Shown: piece after piece, positions 15,249 through 20,157 of the stretch | Layout: every line of letters begins with the position of its first letter | How positions within the stretch are numbered: the stretch's first letter is position 1 | DNA from: an uncultured Pelagibacteraceae bacterium | Lineage (GTDB): Bacteria; Pseudomonadota; Alphaproteobacteria; Pelagibacterales; Pelagibacteraceae | Direction of reading: 5' to 3' | DNA: 41,695 nt | Assembly (NCBI GenBank): GCA_902609675.1 | Contig: CACLST010000008.1 | Span: forward strand, 1-41,695 | Made by a program: the position numbers and the translations under genes | The notes under the pieces: model-generated | Database searches by the model: none | The model's input: only the letters and a program-made list of their open reading frames with translations | What the model was told of the DNA's origin: nothing

Positions 15249-16619
15249 ATGAGATATGTAAGTACAAGAGATAATTCAAAAGAATACACTTTTGAGGATG
15301 TTTTCATCAAAGGATTAGCTGATGATGGTGGACTTTATGTGCCTACATCTCTAAAAAAATTTAGTTCAGAAGAGTTATCTGAACTCAAAAGCTTAGATTT
15401 TAATAACTTATCTACTGAAATAATTAATCAATTTTCATCAGATTTTATCTCTAAAGATGATCTTTCATCATTAATTAATAAATCTTATTCAACTTTCAGA
15501 GAAAAAGACGTTGTTAAAATTTCAAATGTTGGTGATTTGAAGTTATTAGAGTTATTTCATGGTCCAACATTAGCATTTAAGGATATTGCAATGCAGTTCA
15601 TTGGAAATTTGTATGAGTATTATTTAAGCAAGAATAATAAAAAAATTAATATTGTAGTTGCAACTTCAGGTGATACAGGAGCTGCTGCTATAGATGCAAT
15701 TAAAGGCAAATTAAACTTAAATATTTTTGTCTTACATCCTAATAATAGAATTTCACCGGTACAAAGAAAGTTAATGACAACAGTTGAGGATGAAAATGTT
15801 TTCAATATTGCAATTGATGGAAATTTTGACGATTGTCAGAATATAGTAAAACAAATGTTTTCAGATCTTGATTTTTCAAAATCTATTAATATGTCTGGAG
15901 TAAATTCAATTAACTGGGCAAGAATAATTGCCCAAGCTGTATATTATTTTTATACTTATTTTAAACTTAATGAAAATAAGCCTATTTCATTTTCAGTGCC
16001 AACAGGAAACTTTGGAGACGTTTTTGCAGGTTACCTTGCAAAAGAAATGGGATTACCGATAGATAAACTTATTGTTGCAACTAATGAAAATGATATTTTG
16101 CATAGGGCAATCTCTAATGGTGATTATATTTCTAAAAAAGTAAAAGAAACATTTTCTCCAAGTATGGATATCCAATTAGCAAGCAATTTTGAAAGATTAA
16201 TTTATTATGTAAATAATTTTAATTCTGAAATTACATCAAATATAATGAAAAAAGTTAAGAAAAATGAATATAGAATAGAAAAATCAAACCTGGATATCAT
16301 TCAAAAAGATTTTGTTTCAGAAAGTTGCGATGAAATCGAAACTTTAAAAATTATTAAAGAAAATTATGAGAAAAATAATATCATATTAGATCCCCACACT
16401 GCAGTTGGAGTAGGGGCTGCAAATAAGCTTGATTTAAATGATTGTGTAGTTTTATCTACTGCTCATCCATGCAAATTTCCAGCTGCCACTGATAAGGCTA
16501 TAAATAAACATGAAGAACTGCCTAAAGAGCTACAATATGTTCATAGTAAAGAAGAAAATTTTCAACTATTAAAAAATGACACAGAGGCAGTAAAAAATTT
16601 CGTTAAAAGTAAATTATGA
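15249..16619 (+). CDS. thrC: Threonine synthase
   Basis: ThrC converts O-phosphohomoserine to threonine with pyridoxal phosphate. The 456-residue protein begins with MRYVSTRDNS and has the PLP lysine K111 in GPTLAFKD, the SGDTGAAA phosphate-binding loop (about 140-147), and PTGNFGD (about 252-258). Length fits the long (fungal/Gram-negative) type. The stop overlaps the peroxiredoxin start (ATGA). Homoserine kinase (thrB) lies nearby on the other strand, so two consecutive steps of threonine synthesis are close together. Confidence 0.95.
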   Translation: MRYVSTRDNSKEYTFEDVFIKGLADDGGLYVPTSLKKFSSEELSELKSLDFNNLSTEIINQFSSDFISKDDLSSLINKSYSTFREKDVVKISNVGDLKLLELFHGPTLAFKDIAMQFIGNLYEYYLSKNNKKINIVVATSGDTGAAAIDAIKGKLNLNIFVLHPNNRISPVQRKLMTTVEDENVFNIAIDGNFDDCQNIVKQMFSDLDFSKSINMSGVNSINWARIIAQAVYYFYTYFKLNENKPISFSVPTGNFGDVFAGYLAKEMGLPIDKLIVATNENDILHRAISNGDYISKKVKETFSPSMDIQLASNFERLIYYVNNFNSEITSNIMKKVKKNEYRIEKSNLDIIQKDFVSESCDEIETLKIIKENYEKNNIILDPHTAVGVGAANKLDLNDCVVLSTAHPCKFPAATDKAINKHEELPKELQYVHSKEENFQLLKNDTEAVKNFVKSKL

Positions 16620-17101
16620 AGCTAAAAGTTAATGACCAAATACCAGATGTAAAAATCTTTCATTTAGTTGATGGCGAACCTAAGGAACAAAATATATCTG
16701 AGATTTTAGGATCAAAAAAAATAATATTATTTGGTTTACCTGGAGCCTTTACAGCTACATGTTCTAAGTTTCATTTACCAGGTTACGTTAAAAATGCTAA
16801 AAAAATAATAGATAAAGGTATTGATAAAATATTTTGTTTAGCTGTAAATGATCCGTATGTAATGAATGCTTGGGGAGAGGCAAACAACATAGGGGAAAAT
16901 ATAACTATGTTAGCTGATCCTTATTTGTCATTTACAAAGCTAATTGGTGCTGAAGTTGATAGAAATTCAAAAGGTATGGGAATGAGATCAAGCCGTTATG
17001 CCATGATTATAGAAAACCTTAAAGTACAAAACGTTCAAGAAGAGGAAGAAACTAAAAATTGCGGAATATCCTCAGCAGAGGGAATTTTAAATATTGTTTA
17101 G
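16616..17101 (+). CDS. Peroxiredoxin, Prx5-like
   Basis: A 161-residue thiol peroxidase, cytoplasmic by appearance. The active site is T46 and C49 within PGAFTATCSKFHLPGY (43-58), the hallmark of the Prx5 subfamily. There is a second Cys near residue 148 in KNCGISSAEGIL, which could act as resolving Cys, though its position is unusual and this is not proven. The start overlaps the thrC stop by 4 bases. Downstream is a hairpin that forms part of the island's left-end core. Confidence 0.92.
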   Translation: MKLKVNDQIPDVKIFHLVDGEPKEQNISEILGSKKIILFGLPGAFTATCSKFHLPGYVKNAKKIIDKGIDKIFCLAVNDPYVMNAWGEANNIGENITMLADPYLSFTKLIGAEVDRNSKGMGMRSSRYAMIIENLKVQNVQEEEETKNCGISSAEGILNIV

Positions 17102-17105
17102 TAAG

Positions 17106-17126
17106 AGGGGCGTTCTATTTCCCCCT
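17106..17126 (+). terminator. Hairpin after the peroxiredoxin gene (overlaps island core)
   Basis: AGGGG and CCCCT arms enclose about 11 bases starting 4 bp after the stop codon, followed by ataattt. It could terminate the thrC-prx transcript, although the U-tract is weak. The same bases form the left core of the island, and an equivalent hairpin occurs at the middle junction (18663-18683). Confidence 0.4.
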
Positions 17127-17190
17127 ATAATTTAAATACTATAAGAAAATAAAGACTTTTTGAAACACTTCAATGTATTCTTCAATGTAA

Positions 17191-17221
17191 GTTTCTCATA
17201 TTTGGCAGAAACCTTGTTTCT
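17191..17221 (+). promoter_or_regulatory. Mutually exclusive hairpin triplet in R1 copy A
   Basis: GTTTCT at 17191-17196 can pair with AGAAAC at 17207-17212 (10-base loop), and the same AGAAAC can pair with GTTTCT at 17216-17221 (3-base loop). Only one pairing is possible at a time. The arrangement is preserved in copy B (18748-18778), including a C/T change in the first loop. It could be a leader-RNA switch or part of a folded recombination site. Confidence 0.4.
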
Positions 17222-17255
17222 CGACTTCATTGTTATAAGTAGCTAAATTTAGAAA

Positions 17256-18014
17256 ATGATAAAGATAGCATTAATACTAATTTATTTACTATTTAGTTCA
17301 TCAATAGTTAAGAGTGATTCAAAAATAAATGTAACCGTAAAAGAAAGTACCGACTTCACTGGGAAAGAATTTAAACGTAATGAAGAAGGTTGTGGATTGC
17401 AAAAAAACCAAAAAGGTAACCGAGATAAAGAGTCTGTTTTAAATATCTTTTATTCAAAAAACTCTACAATTAAAGGTGGAACATTTGAATGCAGTCTTCA
17501 GAATGTAATATATGCTAAATGGAATTTAAATTTAATTATATCATCAGTTAATGCTAGTAGAGGTTCAGATAATGCTTTTGAAATTAGAAATTCAAATGCA
17601 ATAATTAAAGATAGTAAATTTTCTTTCTCACCTCAAAATAAGTGTGTTGAAGGTGAAAATGGATTGCTTGTTTTTTATAATAATATTTTGGAAAATTGTG
17701 AGCAGGGATTCGATATAGAAAAAACTGATAGTTCAGAATTTACTGCCGTTGTTTTTTTAAACAATGAATTTATATCTATTAAACATGATGCTTTTAACTG
17801 TCATGATAGAAACGATAAAAAAGCAAATAAAGTTTATCTTTTTTTAAAGGACAACAAATTCAAAAAAAAAGGTAAAAAATTTCGAAAATTTGGAAAATAT
17901 AGTAACTGTAAGAAAAGATTTAAAATCTCTTCAGAATTAGAGAATGCTGTACTTAATTCAAACTTTGAGAGAATTGAAATCTTAGTAAGAGAAACTATTA
18001 AAAATAAGAGTTAA
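17256..18014 (+). CDS. Secreted beta-helix-like protein, island gene 1
   Basis: A 252-residue protein with an N-terminal signal peptide (about residues 1-20, ending near SSSIVKSDS). The body shows irregular repeats of about 22-30 residues with N/G turns and short beta strands (for example STIKGGTFECS, NAIIKDSKFSFS, NGLLVFYNNILENC, AVVFLNNEFISI), which suggests a right-handed parallel beta-helix of the pectate-lyase type. Several Cys may form disulfides in the periplasm. The C-terminal 70 residues are Lys-rich. I cannot see a catalytic triad, so enzyme activity is not claimed. It lies 28 bp after R1 copy A. Confidence 0.7.
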   Translation: MIKIALILIYLLFSSSIVKSDSKINVTVKESTDFTGKEFKRNEEGCGLQKNQKGNRDKESVLNIFYSKNSTIKGGTFECSLQNVIYAKWNLNLIISSVNASRGSDNAFEIRNSNAIIKDSKFSFSPQNKCVEGENGLLVFYNNILENCEQGFDIEKTDSSEFTAVVFLNNEFISIKHDAFNCHDRNDKKANKVYLFLKDNKFKKKGKKFRKFGKYSNCKKRFKISSELENAVLNSNFERIEILVRETIKNKS

Positions 18015-18027
18015 AAATGTTATAGAC

Positions 18028-18070
18028 GCATATGCGCGTATAACTGGTAATTTTGATTTTCGACTTTATT
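18028..18070 (+). repeat. Recombination scar between island genes 1 and 2
   Basis: The left part (18028-18052, gcatatgc followed by gtataac and ggtaatt) resembles the sequences after genes 2 (18549-18575) and 3 (19594-19617). The right part (tttcgacttTatt, 18058-18070) resembles the 3' end of R1 (tctcgacttMatt). Everything that lies between these two parts at the intact junction is missing. This fits an internal deletion that fused two former cassettes. Confidence 0.5.
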
Positions 18071-18103
18071 GAAATTTAAGATAATTTATGGTTTATTTAA
18101 ACT

Positions 18104-18499
18104 ATGAAAAAAGTAATCTTAATTTTAACAATTTATCTCATATCAACAATAAGCGCTTTTGCAGAGTTTTCTTTTACTTTTGAATGGGGTGATATAAAAA
18201 AATGCACAACTGGAAATCCTAATAGAGTTTCTAACCCAATTTTTAATCTTACAGATGTACCAGAAGGAACTAAGGAGTTAAGATTTAAGATGAAAGATAA
18301 AGATGTACCTGGATATAACCATGGTGGAGGTAAAATTAAAAACTATACTGGTGAAACAACAATAAAACCTGGTGCTTTCAAATATAAAAGTCCTTGTCCT
18401 CCAAGTGGATCTCACACATATGAGTGGACAATAACTGCCATTGGAGAAAAGAAGAAAAAATTAGGCAAAGCAAAAGCAACTAGAGAGTATCCAGAATAA
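18104..18499 (+). CDS. Secreted shortened PEBP-like (YbhB/YbcL-type) protein, island gene 2
   Basis: A 131-residue protein with a signal peptide (about 1-20, cleavage likely after SAFA). Residues 42-67 (RVSNPIFNLTDVPEGTKE and then MKDKDVPG) parallel the N-P-x-L-x-W-x-x-V-P-x-G-T-x-S ... D-x-D-x-P pattern of phosphatidylethanolamine-binding proteins. Residues near 100 (SPCPPSGSHTYEW) match their GPCPPSG-x-H-x-Y segment. The family's H-W motif and most of the C-terminal part are absent; usual length is 150-185. Ligand binding may therefore be changed. Function unknown; family assignment by eye. Confidence 0.7.
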   Translation: MKKVILILTIYLISTISAFAEFSFTFEWGDIKKCTTGNPNRVSNPIFNLTDVPEGTKELRFKMKDKDVPGYNHGGGKIKNYTGETTIKPGAFKYKSPCPPSGSHTYEWTITAIGEKKKKLGKAKATREYPE

Positions 18500-18584
18500 A
18501 GTTTAAATATAAACTAATTCTTACAACATCTAGAATTTTATTTTCAAAGACATGCAAGTGTTATGTGGTTAAATTCTATTTGTT

Positions 18585-18676
18585 ACTTCAATGTAACTTC
18601 AATGCAAACTTCAATGTAAATTCCTTTTGGAAATTGACTTGGTACAACGGAAACCTTTGGAAAGGGGCGTTCTGTT
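18585..18676 (+). repeat. R2 repeat, copy A (left-arm block plus core)
   Basis: This 92-bp block matches 19630-19721 with 7 mismatches, all within one 14-bp stretch (18635-18648); the first 50 bp and the last 28 bp are identical. It has three direct repeats: TTCAATGTA at 18587-18595, TTCAATGCA at 18598-18606 and TTCAATGTA at 18610-18618, spaced 11 and 12 bp. The core is at 18663-18676. Confidence 0.9.
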
Positions 18677-18784
18677 TCCCCCTATAATTTAAATACTAAC
18701 AGAAAATAAAGACTTTTTGAAACAATTCAATGTATTCTTCAATGTAAGTTTCTCATATTTGGTAGAAACCTTGTTTCTCGACTT
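18663..18784 (+). repeat. R1 repeat, copy B (core plus right-arm block)
   Basis: Second copy of the 122-bp R1 block, joined to R2 copy A through the shared core. The TTCAATGTA repeats are at 18726-18734 and 18738-18746. The hairpin triplet is at 18748-18753, 18764-18769 and 18773-18778. It ends 29 bp before island gene 3, nearly the same distance as copy A from gene 1, which suggests the block supplies the promoter or leader. Confidence 0.9.
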
Positions 18785-18813
18785 AATTAAAGTTTAAAGA
18801 TAAATTTACTTAA

Positions 18814-19569
18814 ATGATTAGATTGGTTTTTATTATTATAATATTGATTTCAAATTCAACAATAGTTTACGGAGATGTTAAAGATAAATTTGAATTATAT
18901 TACTTTGAAGATTTTTCAAATAAGAAATTTAAATATGAATTACCTCATAAGCATAACACCTCATCAAAAGCAAAAAAAATTGAAAATGGTTATTTAAAAG
19001 TAACAGTTAAACCTAAGATGTATGGAGCATCATCTGATAAAAAAAATAATAAAGAACGAGCAGAATATGGTAAGAAAATTTTTTTTTCAAAAAAATTTAA
19101 ATCAAATAAAAAATTTGTTGTGAGTTTTGATGCCAGAGTTGATAAGAATTTTAAAGCAGACAAAAGGACTATGATAGCACAAATTAGAGCAGAAAATAAA
19201 ATGCCCGGCAGTCCTGCAGCAGCAGTTTATTTGTATGAAGGTGGGGTAATGAAATGTGTAGATTTTAGAGGTAAAGATAAACCCTCTAATTACTTTAAAC
19301 AAAATCACACTAGAATTAAAAGTGCCACAAATAACAAAATAGATGTCTTAGATGGAAATTGGCATAATTTTGAAATAATTATGAAATTGGGTGAAAAGGA
19401 TGGATATTGTAAAGTATCAGTAGATAATAAAACAATATTTGAAATAAGTAATTATGACAATATTCATGGAACAAAAAAAATGTTAGCAAGAATTGGAATT
19501 TATAGAGACGCCCTTCCTTATGAACAAACTGTCTATTTTGATAATTTTTTTATTGGAATTGAAAAATAA
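18814..19569 (+). CDS. Secreted polysaccharide-lyase-like (heparin lyase I family fold) protein, island gene 3
   Basis: A 251-residue protein with a signal peptide (about 1-20, after IVYG). The rest reads as a jelly-roll: YYFEDFSN near the start, ERAEYGKK (near 70-77), FVVSFDARVD, MIAQIRAEN, GNWHNFEIIMKL, GYCKVSVDNKTIFEISNYD and the terminal QTVYFDNFFIGIEK. The ERAE..K, W-H and V-Y-F-D-N elements are typical of the heparin-lyase-I-like polysaccharide lyase family. An envelope or extracellular polysaccharide substrate is possible, but the catalytic residues cannot be confirmed by eye. It lies 29 bp after R1 copy B. Confidence 0.72.
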   Translation: MIRLVFIIIILISNSTIVYGDVKDKFELYYFEDFSNKKFKYELPHKHNTSSKAKKIENGYLKVTVKPKMYGASSDKKNNKERAEYGKKIFFSKKFKSNKKFVVSFDARVDKNFKADKRTMIAQIRAENKMPGSPAAAVYLYEGGVMKCVDFRGKDKPSNYFKQNHTRIKSATNNKIDVLDGNWHNFEIIMKLGEKDGYCKVSVDNKTIFEISNYDNIHGTKKMLARIGIYRDALPYEQTVYFDNFFIGIEK

Positions 19570-19593
19570 GTATTTGTCTGACATGTTACATTT

Positions 19594-19617
19594 GCATATG
19601 CAAGTATAACGGTTAAT
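19594..19617 (+). repeat. Post-gene motif with GCATATGC palindrome, copy after island gene 3
   Basis: gcatatgc-aa-gtataac-ggttaat lies 24 bp after the gene 3 stop codon. Diverged copies follow gene 1 (18028-18052) and gene 2 (18549-18575). It appears to be the outer, less conserved part of the right end of each cassette. Confidence 0.6.
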
Positions 19618-19629
19618 TATTGATTAATC

Positions 19630-19721
19630 ACTTCAATGTAACTTCAATGCAAACTTCAATGTAAATTCCTTTTGGAAATAGACTGGAGACGCAGGAAACC
19701 TTTGGAAAGGGGCGTTCTGTT
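19630..19721 (+). repeat. R2 repeat, copy B (left-arm block plus core) at island right end
   Basis: Second copy of R2. The TTCAATGTA-type repeats are at 19632-19640, 19643-19651 and 19655-19663, with the same 11- and 12-bp spacing as copy A. The core is at 19708-19721. Beyond the core the sequence leaves the repeat and enters the rnhA flank (gccaggtgcccca), marking the island's right boundary. Confidence 0.9.
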
Positions 19722-19733
19722 GCCAGGTGCCCC
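19709..19733 (-). terminator. Hairpin after rnhA (GGGGC/GCCCC), overlapping island right core
   Basis: Read on the minus strand, GGGGC and GCCCC arms flank 15 bases, starting one base after the rnhA stop, followed by ctttcc. It could end the long minus-strand transcript. Half of the hairpin is the island core, so the core may originally have been part of a shared terminator between rnhA and the peroxiredoxin gene. Confidence 0.4.
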
Positions 19734-19734
19734 A

Positions 19735-20157
19735 TTAGGAGTTTACAGCTTCTCTAGCTATTAAATCTACTTCGTTGTTTAAAGCATCAGTTGAGTGACC
19801 CTTAACCCAACTCCATTTTATCTTAAATTCATTAGTCAAATTATCAAGTTCAGTCCAGAGCTCTTTATTTTTAACCGGTTGTTTATTTGCAGTTTTCCAG
19901 CCATTTTTTTTCCAATTATGTATCCACTCAGTAATTCCTGATTTCACATATTTAGAGTCTGTGAAAATCTGAACATTACTTCCTTTAGGAATTTTTTTAA
20001 GAGCTTTTATTGGAGCAAGTAATTCCATTTGATTATTTGTGGTATCTTTTTTGCTACCCTTTATATGGATCTTCTTTTTATCATCCATAATAATTGCAGC
20101 CCATCCACCATTTCCTGGATTACCTAAGCACGATCCATCAGTATAGATTTTTATCAT
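19735..20157 (-). CDS. rnhA: Ribonuclease HI
   Basis: RNase HI removes RNA from RNA-DNA hybrids. The 140-residue protein has the full D-E-D-D metal site: D7 (YTDGSC), E45 (NNQMELLA), D67 (IFTDSKYV) and D131 (NEVDLIA), with H121 in VKGHS. The basic handle region (about 78-98, NWKKNGWKTANKQPVKNK) is present. Its start shares one base with the thrB stop. It is the last gene of a minus-strand run, and its 3' side borders the cassette island. Confidence 0.96.
   Translation of the reverse strand: MIKIYTDGSCLGNPGNGGWAAIIMDDKKKIHIKGSKKDTTNNQMELLAPIKALKKIPKGSNVQIFTDSKYVKSGITEWIHNWKKNGWKTANKQPVKNKELWTELDNLTNEFKIKWSWVKGHSTDALNNEVDLIAREAVNS

Follow-up and report, generated by a model that had tools for sequence, protein, structure and literature searches.

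How did two short, adjacent units with matching ends, unrelated contents and no recombinase gene of their own come to lie between prx and rnhA in a SAR11 genome? The question is raised by a stretch of 41,695 nucleotides from an uncultured Pelagibacteraceae bacterium (contig CACLST010000008.1; the whole stretch is called the window below), in which positions 17106–19707 are made up of two tandem units, one of 1557 bp (17106–18662) and one of 1045 bp (18663–19707). We consider it likely, with a probability of about 80%, that both are non-autonomous, site-specific integrative cassettes that are moved in trans by a tyrosine integrase of the lambda type.

The region reads prx, core, R1, cargo, R2, core, R1, cargo, R2, core, rnhA, each unit being laid out as a core with a left arm, cargo, and a right arm with the next core. 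A first-pass annotation of the window had placed a 14-bp core at 17106, 18663 and 19708, and AGGGGCGTTCTRTT is found at exactly these positions with 0 mismatches; elsewhere in the window there are two matches, each with three mismatches, where 2.3 are expected by chance at up to three mismatches. Core 1 (AGGGGCGTTCTATT, 17106–17119, plus strand) is the attL of unit 1, and core 2 (18663–18676, plus strand) is the junction common to both units. The annotated repeat blocks are likewise present, each a few bases longer than first described: the R1 copies that form the left arms (17106–17231 and 18663–18788, plus strand) are 95% identical over 126 nt (blastn E 6.5e-53), and the R2 copies that form the right arms with their cores (18578–18679 and 19623–19724, plus strand) are 89% identical over 102 nt (blastn 92% over 95 nt, E 2.4e-33). 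Two features of the ends had escaped that description of core and arms. The 14-bp core at the right end makes up one half of a longer hairpin, AGGGGCGTTCTGTTGCCAGGTGCCCC, in which core 3 is joined to the chromosomal half GCCAGGTGCCCC (19708–19733, unstranded; predicted at about −13 kcal/mol, with z −1.6 on the plus and −2.2 on the minus strand). In addition, every arm contains iterons, up to three per arm and of the CTTCAATG type, at about +62, +74 and +119 on the left and −77, −66 and −54 on the right, counted from the core. The word CTTCAATG stands at 17168 and 17180 in the first left arm, with CTTCATTG at 17225; at 18586, 18597 and 18609 in the first right arm; and at 19631, 19642 and 19654 in the second. 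The left arm of unit 2 has a full CTTCAATG at 18737 only, the iteron at 18725 being degenerate. Judged by its sequence, the R2-core-R1 segment at 18578–18788 would look like an expected attP, or like the junction of an excised circle.

Between the arms the two units differ, and here open reading frames (ORFs) and Pfam agree with the annotated contents. Unit 1 encodes a secreted beta-helix-like protein of 252 amino acids (aa) at 17256–18014 and a secreted PEBP-like protein of 131 aa at 18104–18499, and unit 2 a single secreted polysaccharide-lyase-like protein of 251 aa at 18814–19569, all on the plus strand. The Pfam scores are 24.7 bits for Beta_helix (slightly below the cut-off of 25.9), 35.9 for PBP/PEBP and 60.5 for Polysacc_lyase (PF14099); a signal-peptide-like N-terminal stretch was judged by eye to be present in all three proteins. 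The reported lack of a recombinase holds as well, as the ORFs of the window units gave no integrase match and the whole of the window's own genome (71% complete) gave zero matches to PF00589.

The repeated core proved not to be an arbitrary sequence; it is the 3′ hairpin of the permuted transfer-messenger RNA (tmRNA) gene, ssrA. In two genomes the Rfam match to alpha_tmRNA (E 9.7e-66 and 2.9e-64) stops at the core hairpin GGGGCACCUGGCAACAGAACGCCCC, ARAGORN predicted a permuted tmRNA gene at 11 of the 26 loci of a first batch, and the core lies inside the predicted gene at most tmRNA loci of the first and a second batch. Of 59 genomes, 56 contain the sequence GTTCTGTTGCCMGG, 33 of them in one copy and 23 in two or three. 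Three sites are occupied by units: ssrA itself, a hairpin resembling it between prx and rnhA, and a third site whose upstream sequence is common to genomes G149 and G386. Insertion at the tmRNA 3′ end is seen for the family, and the window copy stands at the ssrA-like rnhA hairpin, which matches alpha_tmRNA at E 0.0017 and 21.5 bits, below the gathering threshold of 50. A stretch in G194 that resembles the third site (alpha_tmRNA E 1.2e-4, below gathering) is probably the same site, judging by its sequence. The ssrA gene of the window's own genome (locus L241) has the hairpin and no right arm in the adjacent 75 bp.

The same ends surround different genes in many relatives. The exact junction GGGGCGTTCTGTNTC occurs in 32 of 399 genus genomes (the backwards pattern gave 1 match) and, in a draw from the order, in 17 of 297 genomes from 4 of 11 genera, with none in the second family and none for the backwards pattern. 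With the 213-bp R2-core-R1 segment, 90 of 201 genus genomes matched at E ≤0.01, the window's own included; many of these matches are weak, often of 46 bp (query 108–153), and were not used, and the strong ones are mostly R1...R2 pairs lying 0.13 to 4.6 kb apart. Core-to-core units were tabulated in 42 loci around junction or arm matches, in arrays of up to seven cores. Loci at which one core or none could be seen (L036, L039, L042, L044, L053, L056, L140, L144, L153 and L157) were left out of the table, as were L177 and L178, which hold integrase fragments; genomes G158 (L039) and G031 (L044) were used for comparison all the same.

Across these units from Pelagibacter genomes the iterons keep nearly constant spacing while their words vary by family: CTTCAATG in the window, and CTTCATTG, CTTCGTG, CTTCGTTG and, in left arms only, GGTACATAG elsewhere. 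Counted from the core start, left-arm iterons stand at +60 to +63, +72 to +75 and, in most cases, +116 to +129, and right-arm iterons precede the next core at about −78, −67 and −55. A pattern of the left geometry, consisting of the core and the first two iterons, was found at 58 places in 45 of 399 genomes, with 0 for the reversed control; four places judged by eye to be coding sequence were set aside, leaving 54 in 42 genomes. This pattern passes over the window itself, because the core of unit 1 is GTTCTATT and the first iteron of unit 2 is mutated. Arm and cargo counts omit units shorter than 300 bp; 25 of the remaining 68 have both arms, and these measure 1.0 to 9.4 kb with a median of 1.8 kb. 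The two arms of a unit also agree with each other. Their longest common substring averages 11.06 letters, compared with 8.36 (standard deviation 0.29) when arms are swapped between units, and none of 2000 permutations reached 11.06; at least nine letters are common to both arms in 35 of 65 units, against a mean of 20.2 and a maximum of 32 after swapping. This test omits units of up to 420 bp, and since the tabulated units are partly related to one another, we read its result as support rather than as a calibrated probability.

Occupied and empty versions of the window's site could be compared directly. On its left lies prx (16616–17101, plus strand; Redoxin, Pfam 103 bits), whose stop codon is 4 bp before the first core, and on its right rnhA, an RNase H gene identified by ORF and Pfam (19735–20157, minus strand). 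Of 61 genomes searched for rnhA, 53 had a match, and 30 loci were read. In 19 of these prx adjoins rnhA within the stretch: five have one core in a gap of 43–52 bp, an empty att site; seven are core-less, with gaps of 2–53 bp; three have two cores; and four have larger gaps and no or one core. The other 11 comprise the window's own locus and two more with at least two cores, three with one and five with none. The empty site of G118 reads taattagtAGGGCAGTTCTGTTGC, and in the occupied site of G086 taattagtAGGGCA is retained on the left, with AGGGGCGTTCTGTTGCC standing on the right. Empty and occupied sites agree to the base, and comparison of these two places the crossover inside TTCTGTT. Among relatives this site is empty, devoid of the att hairpin, or filled with other cargo, as one would look for in an integration site, and close relatives of the window differ at this position. 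G031 (flanks 88% and 85% identical) has a different right arm, no left core that could be recognised, and a 387-aa gene that by its motifs, read by eye, is DNA-methyltransferase-like; G087 (flanks 86–91%) has a GGTACATAG left arm; and the close relatives G054 and G004 are core-less with a 2-bp gap. Right halves of the GCCCGGCATTAG type had been considered as the native attB of the rnhA site and were rejected, being left arms of another family, for which reason G040 was not used as a native site. At three loci (L143, L160 and L039) prx seems to be absent, and the gene that stands before prx in the window, which we take to be threonine-synthase-like (identified at L160 by ORF length only), is followed by a core or cassette.

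Because the collection holds one genome per species, every comparison of cassettes is one between species. The closest pair is a type IIG restriction cassette, 99.87% identical over 6658 bp, that stands at the rnhA site in G158 and at the ssrA site in G224; the two stretches have no further match of at least 80 bp. In three other pairs, cassettes are more alike than the protein-coding DNA around them: 93.7% over 4.3 kb with flanks at 71–72% (G189 and G297), 98.8% over 0.9 kb with flanks at 76–80% (G258 and G042), and 93.5% over 3.8 kb with protein-coding flanks at 79% and the tmRNA gene at 93.6% (G009 and G042). Read from sequence, this sharing of one cassette by different sites in two species supports mobility, as do the empty sites, the finding of other cargo at the same site, and the arrays.

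Which enzyme might move them is suggested by the largest two-armed unit. In 24 of the 25 units with both arms, none of the ORFs of at least 80 aa matches an integrase. The 25th, a unit of 9.4 kb at ssrA in G528 (locus L165), has just within its left arm a gene for a 431-aa tyrosine integrase, the only one of 128 cargo ORFs to match an integrase (unit L165.0), and its left-arm spacing is like that of the cassettes. The protein matches phrog_1 of PHROG at E 1.2e-13; it falls below the Pfam cut-off, and a sequence search of the PDB gave a single weak, XerC-like match (E 0.0029). An AlphaFold model (mean pLDDT 77, pTM 0.49) retrieved the Tn1549 integrase, Cre and Xer with Foldseek, and its residues 25–405 align to full-length lambda integrase (1z1g) with Z 14.3 and a root-mean-square deviation of 13.8 over 321 aligned residues, the high deviation in the model probably being due to domain placement. 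R256, K291, R368 and Y400 are invariant in six aligned integrase sequences, and are presumably the catalytic set. In a collection of genome contigs relatives were found at seven loci, five of them titled Pelagibacteraceae. An integrase gene or fragment abuts a core in AG-422-F10, AG-915-O08 and AG-430-J17, and in the first two of these it lies just inside the left arm, as in L165. Fragments stand beside a core with GGTACATAG iterons in G386, a remnant with stop codons lies in G281 inside the left arm of an ssrA core with CTTCGTTGT iterons (a left-arm-only unit), and G062 has integrase fragments. The first-pass annotation had supposed a recombinase acting in trans, and an element of the same arm geometry now supplies a candidate for it; the action in trans itself we infer.

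Taken together, these features suggest how the cassettes may move. Each would be a lambda-like attachment site split over its two ends, with three right-arm sites, a core and three left-arm sites. Integrase would bind the arm and core sites of a circle carrying R2-core-R1, and the core of the circle would recombine with an attB that shares GTTCTGTT, either the tmRNA 3′ hairpin or the look-alike between prx and rnhA, by a crossover inside the seven letters given above. Insertion would rebuild the hairpin, and the RNA gene or terminator would therefore survive. Later cassettes could enter at any core and build up arrays; on this proposal the window's tandem would have arisen when the second unit entered at the core of the first, or the reverse. 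The integrase would be supplied by rare autonomous relatives in the same cell, and cassette DNA would pass between cells; homologous recombination within the arms probably swaps cargo as well.

Several observations weigh against this account. No circle, excision or packaging has been observed. Relatives of the integrase are rare, being found in 5 of 399 genus genomes with one full length (G214), and no core is present in the 15 kb around that gene or was seen at the integrase loci L253 and L254; the same was noted at a further integrase locus, L256. The arm words linked to an integrase are CTTCGTTG, GGTACATAG and TTCTTAGTA, and no integrase was found linked to arms with exactly the window's word CTTCAATG. 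Nor was a phage carrier found in two collections. In IMG/VR an exact 21-mer of R2 and two iteron patterns gave 0 matches, the core pattern AGGGGCGTTCTGTNTC gave 20 stretches, all judged to be chance by their other composition or context, and an integrase search gave seven stretches that matched a pattern, none of them a relative; in INPHARED neither R2-core-R1 nor the integrase had a match. The arms themselves are often incomplete: of the 68 units, 19 have a left arm only, one a right arm only and 23 no such iterons, some units, unit 2 of the window among them (its first left iteron is mutated), miss single iterons, left-arm-only units still end at a core though the right arm is missing, and the G158 copy of the type IIG cassette has lost its left arm. 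Finally, G040 (rnhA) and G550 (ssrA) are 97.0% identical over the left 1326 bp and 88% at the right end around different cargo, a partial sharing that better fits homologous recombination.

That process is frequent in SAR11, and it could be asked whether it suffices, the arms being conserved flanks between which ordinary recombination swaps cargo. Besides the G040 and G550 pair, arms of the window's family, which are 88–93% identical to those of the window around different cargo (G023, G022, G094 and others), would suit this explanation. It does not sit well with the same arms at ssrA, at prx-rnhA and at a third site, with different arm families at one site, or with precise core junctions in arrays and empty and occupied sites that match to the base, and as the sole explanation we hold it to be very unlikely. 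We give next to no weight to local duplications or regulatory repeats without mobility. The core hairpins could be terminators, but they fold only weakly better than shuffled sequences (z −0.5 to −2.2), and both duplication and a regulatory repeat are rejected by the recurrence of the ends with other cargo in many genomes, by empty sites and by the identity between species; the shared integration system proposed in place of a duplication by the first-pass annotation is supported by the first two of these observations.

Decay offers another route to enzyme-free units: integrative elements or prophages would have lost their integrase and transfer genes and kept their ends, as strict cis-mobilizable elements (CIMEs) do, and would be immobile except in cis with a newcomer. 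The G281 remnant and the fragments in G386 and G062 are what such decay would leave, and tandem accretion is a known fate of CIMEs (PMC5704250). Yet 24 of the 25 two-armed units lack an integrase match (remnants in ORFs shorter than 80 aa could escape) while the six-site geometry is kept in most of them; one cassette without an integrase is 99.87% identical at two different sites in two species; and the 128 cargo ORFs, of which 78 are singletons, are diverse. We regard decay as unlikely. A chromosomal Xer-like tyrosine recombinase of about 317 aa, which would mobilise cassettes as Xer does IMEX elements, appears highly improbable. PF00589 is above cut-off in 17 of 26 genomes chosen for their cassettes or as references, and 17 of the 20 proteins read are of a 305–321 aa type, but cassette-bearing G037 (90% complete) and G035, G042 and G113 (all incomplete) have no PF00589 match. 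The conserved arm sites moreover call for an arm-binding domain, which Xer enzymes are not known to have.

If the window units are integrase-dependent cassettes, several known systems invite comparison. Integron gene cassettes are arrays of small units of one or a few genes, each with a recombination site (attC, with a GTTRRRY core), whose recombinase is encoded elsewhere. The SAR11 cassettes resemble them in all three respects, and are unlike them in that the core is not GTTRRRY, arm iterons are present and the att site is the tmRNA gene. Strict integron membership was rejected, as a core of GTTCTGTT or GTTCTATT with arm iterons is not attC-like; the window's own genome (71% complete) had no PF00589 match, and IntI as a family was not searched for. 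In lambda-type systems attP consists of a core with arm sites on both sides, and the integrase has N-terminal, core-binding and catalytic parts. SAR11 units likewise have arm-type repeats on both sides of the core, and the integrase is encoded with att in G528 and relatives; they differ in mostly being without an integrase gene, as in the window, and in the fixed steps of 11–12 bp and about 45 bp between arm sites. Staphylococcal cassette chromosome elements without ccr and miniature inverted-repeat transposable elements are likewise non-autonomous and use the recombinase of another element, with another enzyme class and site. Tycheposons carry a tyrosine recombinase and use a tRNA gene as att site, whereas the window units have no tyrosine recombinase match and a tmRNA-like site.

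Closer still are two groups of integrase-less islands flanked by att sites. Of the ssrA islands of Dehalococcoides, 16 of 31 carry an integration module (PMC3146451), and the group is alike in its tmRNA-gene site and in having members without that module. In the portion of that report available to us, the enzyme is the serine recombinase DsiB, the vcr islands are of about 12 kb and no arm-site arrays are described (PMC3146451); the enzyme linked to SAR11 cassettes is a tyrosine integrase, the host has a permuted tmRNA, and there are further att sites such as rnhA. No CcrB-like serine recombinase module lies next to attL in the window units, which hold three cargo genes with other Pfam matches. 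CIMEs, as PMC5704250 describes them, also keep attL and attR, lack integration and transfer genes and accrete in tandem, and the window likewise has cores and arms at both ends and no integration or transfer genes (transfer being judged from Pfam only). They are defined by having lost those genes, whereas SAR11 two-armed units are integrase-less as a rule with largely intact arms, and occur, unlike CIMEs, as near-identical copies in different species and sites. By analogy, then, the cassettes would work like a known lambda-type att system minus its enzyme and resemble known integrase-less islands; what appears new relative to ssrA islands and CIMEs is the enzyme class, the largely intact multi-site ends on units that are enzyme-free as a rule, the arrays and the further shared sites. 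Wilhelm et al. (2007) reported no attC sites and no clear integron signatures in SAR11 hypervariable regions (PMC2217521). Our literature searches, which covered open-licence PMC papers only, found no description of this SAR11 family, and we do not claim its absence from print.

The cargo bears on what the family does for its hosts. The tabulated units contain 128 ORFs of at least 80 aa, which form 18 clusters and 78 singletons. Among proteins chosen for study (30 for Pfam, 10 for PADLOC) were a complete type I system (HsdM, HsdS and HsdR), a second type I pair, a type IIG pair, an AlwI-type enzyme, several DNA methylases, a PD-(D/E)XK nuclease, a polysaccharide deacetylase and further PF14099 lyases; about one third of the 30 matched no Pfam family above its cut-off. 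The proposed family of small cargo cassettes in SAR11 holds, but secreted proteins are not its signature, because restriction-modification genes are common among the cargo examined. Relatives do not all share the window's three genes: the lyase and PEBP genes were each found in 2 of 76 genomes (E 1e-5), the window's own included, the beta-helix gene being outside this search. A second PEBP gene, 77% identical, lies among other genes in G011 with no core nearby, and by its sequence is a possible chromosomal source of the window's copy. A protein of 110–111 aa is found repeatedly, inside cassettes of different arm families or next to them (L033, L034, L046, L143, L145, L149, L168 and L169); the single one scanned had no Pfam match, and it is possibly an accessory factor.

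On balance we lean towards a broader view, in which SAR11 would have an integron-like cassette economy without an integron: several integrase-less families, each with its own six-iteron sites and sharing the tmRNA and look-alike att sites, would form arrays and take restriction systems and secreted enzymes from one species to another. Rare lambda-like integrases, co-evolving with the iteron words, would serve them in trans, and a second class of units, with co-varying iterons of its own, would compete for the same site. SAR11 bacteria are among the most abundant cell groups in the sea, and for gene gain and loss in the variable regions of their streamlined genomes the family offers a concrete mechanism, defined sites and a candidate enzyme. 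Because many cassettes carry restriction-modification genes, this turnover is linked to phage defence. The interchangeable natural arm words also make the arm specificity of the integrase testable.

Some further features of these loci were noted. Besides its integrase, the element of L165 (2500–11913 as oriented) has genes for a serine resolvase (PF00239) and for a protein weakly like Rep_1, and may thus be plasmid- or phage-like. Three further integrases, of 424, 443 and 509 aa, are present in cassette-bearing genomes (L077, L078 and L079). Part of the 23 iteron-less units belong to a second class at the same sites (L035, L050, L054, L145, L151, L156, L158 and L166), with a left end like GCCAGGTGCCCCRAACTTTGT and paired iterons of their own (GACGCC, GTCGTCC, GGCCGA and GTGCG types) that agree between both ends; their ORFs gave no integrase match, and an integrase of their own was not searched for. 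In left-arm-only units within arrays (L152, L167, L148 and L156), the stop codon of a gene often falls a few bases before the next core. Mini units devoid of cargo measure 128 bp core to core at L037, L038 and L051 and 159 bp at L166; in those of 128 bp the left arm, as far as its second iteron, is fused to the right arm past its last iteron, and the fusion junction is identical in two arm families.

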